IMG/VR virus record: IMGVR_UViG_3300047317_000385
Span: 1-56,454 of that record
Strand: one strand, 5' to 3'
Source of the DNA: a virus
Length of the DNA: 56,454 nt
Part shown: positions 622 to 10,539 of the stretch, one piece after another
Layout: each line of letters starts with the position of its first letter
Numbering within the stretch: the first letter of the stretch is position 1
Notes under the pieces: model-generated
What the model saw: the letters and a program-made list of their open reading frames with translations, nothing else
The model's database searches: none
What the model was told of the DNA's origin: nothing
Program-made: the position numbers and the translations under genes

Positions 622-696
622 TGCCCTGGGCGGGACTCGAACCCGCAAGAACGCCGATTTTAAGTCGGCAGCGTCTACCAATTCCGCCACCAGGGC
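622..696 (-). tRNA. tRNA-Leu (anticodon TAA), short variable loop
   Basis: Seen on the minus strand: acceptor GCCCTGG pairs with CCAGGGC, the D arm is Leu-like (GCGGAATTGGTAGACGC), the anticodon arm is GCCGA-CTTAAAA-TCGGC with anticodon TAA, the T arm is GCGGG-TTCGAGT-CCCGC, and the discriminator is A. CCA is not encoded. The odd point is the variable region, only about six bases (GTTCTT), where tRNA-Leu normally has a long paired arm. Total length is 75 nt. TTA codons should be rare in this GC-rich genome. It lies just after the 700-855 gene and directly before the structured RNA candidate. Confidence 0.9.
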
Positions 697-7509: not shown

Positions 7510-7811
7510 GAGGGTCGCTCCCCCAGACGCCAGCCCGTAACGTAGCGCTGCTCTATGCGCGGATTCTGCGCACCACGTTCCTCGTCGTACACGTAGGAAC
7601 GCCGCTCCTCTTTCAGTCCTCGCACTCGGTCAGCCGCTTCGACGCATTCGCGCATCACGTCGATTTTTGCTTCGCGGTAACGACGATTCATCTTCTCCCA
7701 AGACGTATCCGCGATCTGGCTCTTTGCGTGGCGTGCTTTCGCCGCCGCCTCGTCACCACTATTGCCAATCCCGTGCTCAAGATCAAGCAGGACTATCGGG
7801 GGTTCGCTCAT
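7506..7811 (-). CDS. Small helical protein in the preQ0-dpdA operon
   Basis: 101 residues, ATG at 7811 overlapping the folE stop (ATGA); its own stop overlaps the ParB-like ATG. After an N-terminal IVLLDLEHGIG the chain is charged and helical (WEKMNRRYREAKIDVMREC). No family recognised. Being locked between folE and the ParB-like gene suggests a role in the DNA modification process, but nothing in the sequence says what. Confidence 0.75.
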   Translation of the reverse strand: MSEPPIVLLDLEHGIGNSGDEAAAKARHAKSQIADTSWEKMNRRYREAKIDVMRECVEAADRVRGLKEERRSYVYDEERGAQNPRIEQRYVTGWRLGERPS

Positions 7812-8374
7812 CGGACTCCCATCAGCGCCAGCGCCTCGCCGCGCGCTCGCGGATCGTCCTTCATCGCGCCGCGCAACACGCTCGTGACGGTCACGCAGCC
7901 CGGCTTGCGGACCCCGCGCCGCTCCATGCACATATGCCGCGCCTCGATCACGACCGCCACCCCCTTGTTCGGCAGGTGCTCCACGATCGCGTCCGCTATC
8001 TCCATCCCCAACCGCTCCTGAGTCTGCAACCGCAACGCGAACACGTCCACCAGCCGCGCGAGCTTCGACAAGCCCACGATCTTCCCGTCAGCGATGTACG
8101 CGACGTGCGCGATCCCCGTTATGTCCTCCAGGTGGTGCTCACACGTCGAGTAGAGCGGAATGTCCTTGACGACCACCATCTCGTCGTAGCCGCAACCGTC
8201 GAACGTCTTGAAGTGCTCCGCCGGGTCCATCCGGTAGCCCGCGGTGCGTTCCGACCACGCCTGTGCAGCACGCCCCGGCGTCTCCGCCAGATCCGGCCGG
8301 CCAGCGTGCTCGCCCTCAGCCCAGATCAGCAGCCGCTCAAACGCCTCGCGCACGTACTCGGGAATGTCAGACAC
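7808..8374 (-). CDS. folE: GTP cyclohydrolase I
   Basis: 188 residues from GTG 8374, which overlaps the queE stop; an in-frame TTG at 8395 is the alternative. Known reaction: GTP to 7,8-dihydroneopterin triphosphate, first step to folate and 7-deazaguanines. Seen: ETPGRAAQAW, the zinc and active-site block YSTCEHHLEDITGIAHVAYI, KIVGLSKLARLVDVFA, LQTQERLGMEIADAI and EARHMCMERRGV. The two Cys and one His zinc ligands (TCEHH, HMCME) are present. In this operon it supplies the preQ0 pathway for DNA modification. Confidence 0.97.
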   Translation of the reverse strand: MSDIPEYVREAFERLLIWAEGEHAGRPDLAETPGRAAQAWSERTAGYRMDPAEHFKTFDGCGYDEMVVVKDIPLYSTCEHHLEDITGIAHVAYIADGKIVGLSKLARLVDVFALRLQTQERLGMEIADAIVEHLPNKGVAVVIEARHMCMERRGVRKPGCVTVTSVLRGAMKDDPRARGEALALMGVR

Positions 8375-9142
8375 CGCGCACCGTCCCCCACGCAATCACA
8401 TGCAACTGGGGCAGCACCCGCACGTAGCTCATCAACGGGTCCGCCGCGACACGCTCACACAGCCAACGGTACCGCTCGCAAATCTCGCGCTTCACGTCCT
8501 CGTCGCTCGCCGCGATATCCGTCAGCGACGGTACCGGCGTGCCCGCACTCACGAAGCACGGCAGGTCCGCGTGTTTCACGTGAAACGCTCGCGCCCACTC
8601 ATAGTCCGTCTCATCGAACACCACGATCTTCAACGCCGCTTTCGGCTCCTCGAACGCGCCAGTGAACTTGGGCTCTTCTTCGACGTGCTCGATGAAGTCC
8701 CGCGTCTCCTGCTCGTGCTCGAAGCTGACCATGCCGCTCGACGGGGGCTTCGGACTGATGACGAGCTGGTCGACCATCGTCAACCACTCCTTCCAGCGCG
8801 AACCCTGTGTCTCCACGCTCACCGTCATGCCCTTCTCATGCAGAGCTTCGACCAGCGGTCCCAGCTCGTGCAGCGCCGGGTTACCCCCGCTGAGAATGAC
8901 CCTCGGCGCGCTCGGCAAACGCTCAACGATCTCCTGAACCGTCAGGCGCTCTGCCTTGCGGACCTCATGCGGGAGCACGGCTTGCAATGTGTCGCACCAT
9001 GAACAGTGCTGATAGTCACAACCCCCAAGTCTCACAAAGCAAACAGGCAAGCCAGCCTCCGGTCCCTCACCTTGGATGGTCAGGTAGGGCCAAAGACTTC
9101 GACCACCGGGAAGGTGCGAGGCTTAGACCCTTGTGCTGGCAT
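8367..9142 (-). CDS. queE: 7-carboxy-7-deazaguanine synthase, frame interrupted near its start
   Basis: Radical SAM enzyme making CDG from 6-carboxytetrahydropterin. Seen: VVEVFGPT in one frame meets IQGEGPEAGLPVCFVRLGGC in another; together they give the canonical QueE N terminus. The join is CCT ACC TGA CC ATC on the minus strand at about 9080-9093. Skipping five bases from ACC to ACC restores about 256 residues; otherwise a TGA ends translation. The downstream frame alone (TTG 9050) lacks the GEG substrate loop. The cluster motif is C-x4-C-x2-C (CDYQHCSWC), one residue longer than usual. Then VILSGGNPAL and LVISPKPPSS. The start ATG 9142 follows GAGGGGG; an in-frame ATG at 9157 is an alternative. 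Confidence 0.85.
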
Positions 9143-9212: not shown

Positions 9213-9590
9213 TCACGCGCGCACCGTGACGCTGCTCGTCGCCGTCTCATACACCGTGACGGCCGTGAGCACATCCCCGAGCCAGTGGCCTAGCGAGCGC
9301 AGGATCCACGCCGCGATGTTCTCCGCGGTCGTCGGGCCGATGTCGGGACCGATCGTCTCGTTCAAGTTCTGATGGTCCAGCAACGGCTCGATCTGCTTCC
9401 ACGCCTCCTTGACCTTCGAGAAGTCCGTGACCATGCCCTCTTCGGGACCGCTGCCCGCCTCCTGAACCTCGCCTTCGAGCTCCACGACAACGCGGTAGCT
9501 GTGCCCGTGCGGGCGGGCGCACTTGCCGTCATGGTTCGGGAGGACGTGCGCCGCCTCGAACCTGAACTCCTTCGTCAGCGTGGCTCTCAT
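9213..9590 (-). CDS. queD: 6-carboxy-5,6,7,8-tetrahydropterin synthase
   Basis: 125 residues, ATG at 9590 overlapping the upstream stop as ATGA. Converts dihydroneopterin triphosphate to 6-carboxytetrahydropterin. Seen: FRFEAAHVLPNHDGKCARPHGHSY, giving the zinc histidines and the catalytic Cys (KCARPHGHS), then MVTDFSKVKEAW and LLDHQNLNE, and NIAAWILRSL with a C-terminal VTVYETATSSV. Full length for the family. A gap of about 70 bases separates it from the queE start. Confidence 0.96.
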   Translation of the reverse strand: MRATLTKEFRFEAAHVLPNHDGKCARPHGHSYRVVVELEGEVQEAGSGPEEGMVTDFSKVKEAWKQIEPLLDHQNLNETIGPDIGPTTAENIAAWILRSLGHWLGDVLTAVTVYETATSSVTVRA

Positions 9591-9805
9591 GGGCGGAATC
9601 CGCGCGTGCGTCCTGTCCGCTCAAACAGACGGGCGGCCCGCCGAGCACCCCAGCGGGTGAAGTGCCAGGTGCACCAGCCGCTCGACCTGCCGAGAGTTTC
9701 ACGGCGCACCACAACCCAGGGACCCTCTCGTTTTGGCAGCACCCATGCGCGACCGTACCGCTGCATGTCCGAGAACGGCCGCGCGTTCTGAAACTGGACG
9801 CTCAT
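9587..9805 (-). CDS. Small basic protein between queC and queD
   Basis: 72 residues, ATG at 9805 overlapping the queC stop and its stop overlapping queD. Trp- and Arg-rich ([28 protein letters not shown], with W and H in CTWHFTRW). No family recognised. Its lock-step position inside the que genes hints at a role in the pathway or in DNA binding. Confidence 0.7.
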
Positions 9806-10539
9806 GCGACCTGATCCAGATACATCGCGGGGTCCTTTATGCCGTTCTCCTCGAAGCCCTTGAGCCGCAGCAGGCACGAGTCGCACCGGCCGCAAACGCG
9901 CATGTCGCGCCACACCCTTTCGCCCGTAGGCGAATTTTGCACATTCAACGGTCCCGGCTGCGGGTCGTAGCACGAGTGCGTGTGCGCATAGTCGACGCCG
10001 AGCGCCAGGCCCCGCTCGATGATCTGCGCCTTCGTCTGCTCGATCAGCGGCGCGACGATCACGGGCGCCTGCACGGTCACAGCGCGCTTCGTGGCGACCG
10101 CCGCGACCTCGTTCATCGCGTCGATGAAGGCCGGACGGCAGTCGGGATAACCCGAGTAGTCGAGCGCGTTCACGCCGACGTAGACGTGGTCGGCCTCGAC
10201 CAGCTCCGCATACGCCAGCGCGTAGGACAGCAGGATCAGGTTCCGGCCCGGCACGTAGGTCACGGGAACGTCTTTGCTTGCCAGCACGTCCTCCGCCGAC
10301 TCGCTCTTGGGCACGTCGATCTGATCGGTCAGCGCGGACCCGCCGAACTGCCGCAAGTCGAGAGTGACGATCTTGTGCGGATACTCGCGGGCCTGCCAGC
10401 GCGCACAGTCAAGCTCGGTGCTGTGCCGCTGGCCGTAGCTGAACGACAGCGGGTACGGGTCGAACCCGTCAGCCTTGACGATGGCGAGCACGGTGGCCGA
10501 ATCGAGGCCACCTGAGAGAAGAACGACGGCGCGAGACAT
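9802..10539 (-). CDS. queC: 7-cyano-7-deazaguanine (preQ0) synthase
   Basis: 245 residues, ATG at 10539. Converts CDG to preQ0 with ATP and ammonia. Seen: the PP-loop [15 protein letters not shown] at the N terminus, [15 protein letters not shown], the [11 protein letters not shown] block, [28 protein letters not shown] and the C-terminal zinc site [14 protein letters not shown]. All key residues are present and length is normal. It is the first gene of the preQ0-dpdA operon, with its own leader (AAAGGAG) and a GGTTATTG promoter-like element upstream. No amidotransferase (Gat-QueC) fusion is present. Confidence 0.97.

Follow-up and report, generated by a model that had tools for sequence, protein, structure and literature searches.

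The queE gene, which serves in the making of a modified DNA base, is in the virus record described here interrupted by five non-coding nucleotides and, judging from its sequence, is very probably expressed by programmed translational bypassing, in the form of a short hop over a stop codon. The window, that is the whole stretch of DNA analysed, is a virus record of 56,454 bases and a metagenome contig, with the 7-deazaguanine pathway genes queC, queD, queE and folE on its minus strand (Table 1). An earlier note had claimed that queE is readable only by skipping five bases, from one ACC codon to the next over a TGA, and this is confirmed by the junction itself, GTG GTC GAA GTC TTT GGC CCT ACC / TGACC / ATC CAA GGT GAG GGA. 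Joined across the 5 nt the two frames give in alignment the exact N-terminus of QueE, PVxEIFGPTIQGEG, and the QueE of B. subtilis (structure 5TGS) aligns through the junction. The inserted bases can also be placed as TACCT or ACCTG, and all placements that restore GPTIQGEG are 5 nt long. Against TIGR03365, the curated model of QueE (7-carboxy-7-deazaguanine synthase), the joined protein scores 237.3 bits, above the cut-off of 206.1, whilst the downstream ORF alone scores 202.4 and falls below it. The gene has the marks by which bypassing is recognised: a non-coding gap divides a conserved protein into two ORFs, the take-off codon is identical to the landing codon, and a stop immediately follows take-off. 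The neighbouring folE, queD and queC are intact, as had been claimed, each matching its protein family, and the nearest continuous relatives of the window queE have about 50-57% identity to it.

In the mechanism proposed, the ribosome would translate as far as ACC, with TGA then lying in the A site, the peptidyl-tRNA-Thr (for which the anticodon GGU is expected) would release and the mRNA would slip by 5 nt, after which the tRNA-Thr would re-pair on the second ACC and decoding would restart at ATC. The product would be an ordinary continuous QueE reading …FGPT-IQGEG…, and a 5' hairpin would probably assist the hop by forming again behind the ribosome, as that of T4 gene 60 does. That a single ribosome makes the fused product, together with the tRNA step, the role of the hairpin and the efficiency of the hop, is what we infer from the comparisons given below.

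Table 1. Features of the window around the interrupted queE
Feature	Position	Strand	Remarks
queE frame 1, translation MPAQGSKPRTFPVVEVFGPT	9083..9142	minus	ATG at 9142; PVxEIFGPT homology; ends in take-off ACC
Alternative earlier queE start, ATG	9157		possible
Take-off codon ACC (Thr)	9083..9085	minus	from the sequence; ACC/ACT in all 23 tabulated genes, ACT in L332
Coding gap TGACC, 5 nt	9078..9082	minus	TGA in A site; landing ACC = 9080-9078; same rule in 23 other genes
queE frame 2, from ATC (9077), IQGEG…	8367..9077	minus	236 codons + stop
Candidate 5' stem-loop adjoining take-off	9086..9131	minus	5' arm AGGGTC, 3' arm GGCCCT; fold weakly supported in window
queD, intact	9213..9590	minus	TIGR03367; directly upstream of queE
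folE, intact	7808..8395	minus	TIGR00063
queC, intact	9802..10539	minus	TIGR00364

Two further observations concern the start of the window gene. The third-position GC at 8960-9142 (minus strand) is 0.45-0.70 compared with about 0.87 in neighbouring genes, possibly a conversion tract from a donor of lower GC. The cluster motif of the window QueE, at about 8985-9020, is CX4CX2C (CDYQHCSWC) and not the usual CX3CX2C, as is also found in L001; CX3CX2C is not strictly defining for QueE and other spacings are known.

The interruption is not confined to the window. Related queE genes were collected by motif and through the sequence downstream of the boundary, and then with DNA patterns that tolerated a gap without prescribing its length or a stop in it; the approximately 94 distinct viral queE genes examined are all continuous at FGPT^IQGEG except for the interrupted ones. 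The queE of phage L099, found via its downstream part, has 11 extra nt at this boundary and reads GGG CCT ACC TAAGCGGGACC ATT CAA GGT GAG, and the gap-tolerant patterns gave the junctions ACC TAGCC ATT in L183, ACT TAGCT ATC in L225 and ACT TGACC ATC in L227/L236, with L225 and L236 belonging to a QueE subfamily that is deeply separated in the tree from that of the window. The exact DNA pattern of the window site has no match in viral_contigs, no nucleotide relatives of the window were found among cultured phages, and the cultured-phage queE genes listed by tblastn contain no split matches. The late-starting matches among these that were checked (Vibrio V09, HCTV-1, phiSM and others) are annotated as continuous genes. 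Of the pattern matches L164-L224, all but L183 and L217 are due to chance or belong to different genes.

The same boundary is interrupted in actinomycetes, where the gap-tolerant pattern led, in genome_contigs, to two Streptomyces genomes, and a survey of 393 Streptomyces genomes gave many QueE matches that start only at the IQGEG residue. The junctions in Streptomyces are TAGTCC, TAACGCC, TGACC, TGAGGCC, TAGCGCC, TAGCGCT, TAGCACC, TGAGGGCC and TGAACC. Another actinomycete order has two interrupted queE genes, with TGAACC and AGACC, and a survey of that order found none beyond these two. The second of them (L312, G760:C1:2754824-2755492) reads ACT AGACC CTC and is the sole case without a stop, with AGA, a rare codon in such actinomycete genomes, after the take-off codon. 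The gene order in the interrupted actinomycete genes inspected is queD-queE-folE, and their genomes mostly have no second QueE match. One case lies on a complete plasmid, that of S. chartreusis NBC_00851 (L332 2504-3175), and reads ACT TAGGGCT GTG; the RefSeq annotation there has QueE begin at the post-gap GTG and thus without its first conserved strand. The window is a metagenome contig, and it could be thought that its gap is a sequencing or assembly error, or that it is spliced or edited out of the RNA, yet the recurrence of the feature in isolate genomes, including this complete plasmid, excludes an assembly error, a search of Rfam gave no RNA family match, and no mechanism is known to take 5-11 nt out of bacterial mRNA, which leaves such an explanation extremely improbable.

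A total of 24 queE genes are thus interrupted at FGPT^IQGEG: that of the window, those of four further phages and 19 from Streptomyces and other actinomycetes, and it is apparent that they follow one rule. The codon after take-off is TGA in 10, TAG in 10, TAA in three and AGA in one, a stop in 23/24, and this immediate stop at the same boundary in 22 genes other than that of the window (one more having AGA) is not attributable to chance. The take-off codon is ACC in 14 genes and ACT in 10 with no other threonine codon used, ACT being enriched there (7/18 versus 3.4% in gene bodies, p = 1e-6); at the same position the intact viral queE genes use ACG, ACC, ACA and ACT. The landing codon is GCC in 10, ACC in nine, GCT in three and TCC in two, the gap always ending in NCY, and take-off and landing codons match at two or three bases in nearly all genes, with two of three in more than half of the cases. 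Restriction of take-off to ACC or ACT together with the NCY end is compatible with a single tRNA-Thr(GGU) that forms two or three base pairs on re-pairing. The earlier note had proposed to see whether TGACC is conserved; the exact five bases are not, whilst the rule of ACY, stop and NCY is. A tree of 117 QueE requires at least eight gains or losses of the interruption, and between the sisters L271/L275 (TAGTCC) and L276 (TGACC) both gap length and stop differ with the rule retained.

The lengths of the gaps bear on a further explanation, that of a conserved ribosomal frameshift, -1 or +2, close to ACC TGA which would give GPYLTIQGEG. The five phage genes would allow it, as in all of them the gap length is 2 mod 3 and the -1 frame contains no stop, with the residues PYLT in the window and in L236, SYLA in L183, PHLA in L225 and AYLSGT in L099. 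Across the family the gaps are 5, 6, 7, 8 and 11 nt and fall in all three frame classes, so that no single fixed frameshift serves the family, the 6- and 7-nt gaps of actinomycetes requiring other frames. As the shift is not constant, the window is without a canonical slippery heptamer, and a frameshift would place 2-4 extra residues inside the invariant FGPTIQGEG loop, this explanation is considered unlikely and bypassing is preferred to it.

Selection was examined in the actinomycete genes. The interrupted genes have pN/pS of 0.034 before the gap and 0.157 after it, the corresponding parts of intact sisters 0.058 and 0.148, and close interrupted pairs have dN/dS mostly of 0.18-0.3. Judged by these rates, the interrupted actinomycete queE is in use, with both pieces selected as parts of one protein. 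It might be supposed instead that queE has been broken by an inactivating insertion, perhaps the footprint of a homing endonuclease, as a homing-endonuclease-like gene lies between queD and queE in 4/4 of the other interrupted phages and a second interruption is found nearby in L099 and L183. Against this, both parts of the actinomycete genes evolve like intact genes, the purifying selection on both sides excluding decay in these organisms, the sequence of the gap varies but its immediate stop and NCY end are maintained, every actinomycete gene retains a body of 222-223 codons, and there is no such endonuclease at the Streptomyces loci inspected. Loss of the gene is likewise regarded as unlikely, and the killing insertion that had been raised as an alternative gives way to bypassing.

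A functional gene could also be made as two polypeptides, with a leader that ends at the stop and a remainder that restarts at or near the resume codon. A start-capable GTG is the resume codon in three genes, and in S. chartreusis besides, where the RefSeq start lies, and in L236 a TTG overlaps the stop. The resume codons are mostly GTA, GTC, GTT, ATT, ATC, ATA and CTC, though, so that in most genes no start codon stands there and re-initiation does not account for the family; moreover, the leader keeps the first strand of QueE at a pN/pS of 0.034. Such a restart is considered very unlikely, and a hop that joins the two frames is the reading carried forward.

The genes that lie between queD and queE in the interrupted phages are of two kinds. 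That of L183 is an HNH gene above the Pfam cut-off and that of L099 also HNH, by a weak Pfam match backed by tblastn to annotated HNH proteins, whilst those of L225 and L236 are LAGLIDADG-like by motif, L225 without a Pfam match. Among about 90 intact viral queE, in a motif scan that was not exhaustive, an HNH gene is directly upstream only in L140 (Fisher p about 7e-6). In L140 (near 2133) and in HCTV-1 KC292029 (L267 803-1459) the HNH gene stands directly upstream of a continuous queE, so that homing endonucleases are drawn to this place also where queE has no gap. A search of the window found no HNH gene, and no homing endonuclease gene lies between its queD and queE. The link between homing endonuclease and gap in phages is suggestive, and the gap can persist without it; the first idea, that the insertion is the footprint of a homing endonuclease, is now retained only as a possible origin of the gap in phages, because there are Streptomyces cases without such a gene.

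A further feature of the actinomycete genes is a hairpin right before the take-off codon, CCGAA(G)CTCGT…ACGAG…TTCGG, which is present and conserved in 18 genes. In the interrupted actinomycete genes the outer helix CCGAA:TTCGG is paired in 89/90 cells while the codons of the 5' arm vary (PK, LK, SK, PE, PM, PS); in intact sisters the 3' arm is common and many of the pairs are lost. The mean z against synonymous resampling is -1.67 for interrupted and -0.53 for intact actinomycete genes. Phage queE genes too have local hairpins, a clear one in L099 and a weak one in the window, where the 5' fold has a z of about -1 by dinucleotide shuffle, finds no support against synonymous resampling and is not significant. 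Structure 3' of the gap does not clearly set interrupted genes apart from intact ones.

Some of the phage genes have second interruptions, which lie in the Cys motif. That of L099 (2490-2505) reads TGG TTAAAGG TGT, 7 nt with a partly matching landing codon AGG, and that of L183 (13020-13035) reads CGA TTACCCGT TGT, 8 nt with a partly matching CGT. Both have TTA immediately after the presumed take-off codon, and TTA makes up 7.5% of Leu codons in L099 and 1.9% in L183, as counted in the fetched contig parts. In L077, whose nearest relative on the tree is the interrupted L183, about 12 codons are inserted in frame, from 2519, separating the second Cys of the cluster motif from the third. The window carries at 622-696 (minus strand) a tRNA-Leu with anticodon TAA, which reads TTA, in a phage of 65.6% GC.

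The best known system of this type is T4 gene 60, which has a 50-nt gap, a stop directly after take-off, a 5' stem-loop and an upstream HNH gene, mobA (PMC5009743, PMC3014915, PMC11194080). In gene 60 the 5' stem-loop favours forward sliding by folding again behind the ribosome (PMC11194080, PMC5009743), and the gap has been regarded as a protection against the nuclease by which the upstream homing endonuclease gene was spread (PMC5009743). The queE genes share the stop after take-off and the gap between two frames of a conserved protein and, in the actinomycetes, the 5' stem-loop, of which the window has a candidate; in 4/5 interrupted phages a homing-endonuclease-like gene upstream recalls mobA. 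The T4-like bypassing proposed in the earlier note gains support from the recurrence of the interruption in 19 actinomycete genes and in the four phages besides the window. They differ in that the gap is 5-11 nt and has no room for a take-off hairpin, take-off is at about codon 13-21 and not 46 and involves a Thr and not a Gly tRNA, the landing codon is often only a two-of-three match, and the cases are many and occur also in bacterial genomes. As about 13-21 codons precede the queE take-off, and the nascent-peptide signal of T4 acts at about 25-30 residues from the P site, that signal cannot be copied exactly. It appears from these comparisons that queE would work like T4-type bypassing, yet on the nascent peptide it falls outside the strict T4 type and would be a new, short and recurrent variant.

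Short hops over a stop onto a similar codon were made in E. coli by Weiss et al. 1987, with +5 and +6 shifts as far as the constructs are described in review (PMC5009743); the queE hop resembles these, which were artificial, and no natural in-frame stop hop was known to that review in 2016 (PMC5009743). In mitochondria of Magnusiomyces capitatus there are 81 byps sites in 12 genes, with an unused codon in the A site (PMC5009743), and queE is similar in that a short non-coding block is skipped with partly two-of-three codon matching, but in queE there is one gene, one codon boundary and a stop codon. Finally, a bypass at UUA has been proposed for the terminase of Streptomyces phage Hau3 (PMC5009743), like queE a case of an actinobacterial phage and a slow A-site codon, and TTA is the codon at the second interruptions of L099 and L183; the gene is different, and the queE junction has a stop and not UUA.

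Programmed bypassing in bacteria and phages has so far rested almost entirely on T4 gene 60, and the searchable literature holds no earlier report of bypassing in queE. With moderate confidence, the actinobacterial and phage queE genes may be taken as the first recurrent family of naturally occurring, short programmed stop-hops, with repeated gains and losses at a single boundary under the rule ACY-stop-short spacer-NCY and with a 5' refolding hairpin. In phages the interruption would travel with HNH or LAGLIDADG genes placed between queD and queE and might shield the site from cleavage, as has been proposed for the gap of T4 mobA/gene 60, and in Streptomyces it may tune the output of QueE. 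Gene finders mis-start or break the interrupted queE genes. If the family is real, there would be more than 20 natural cases with variable gaps, all three stops, close intact sisters and culturable Streptomyces hosts, and bypassing would pass from a single curiosity to a system with rules that can be read by comparison and tested, which bears on how a peptidyl-tRNA leaves and finds codons, on regulatory bypassing and on the association of homing endonucleases with gaps.
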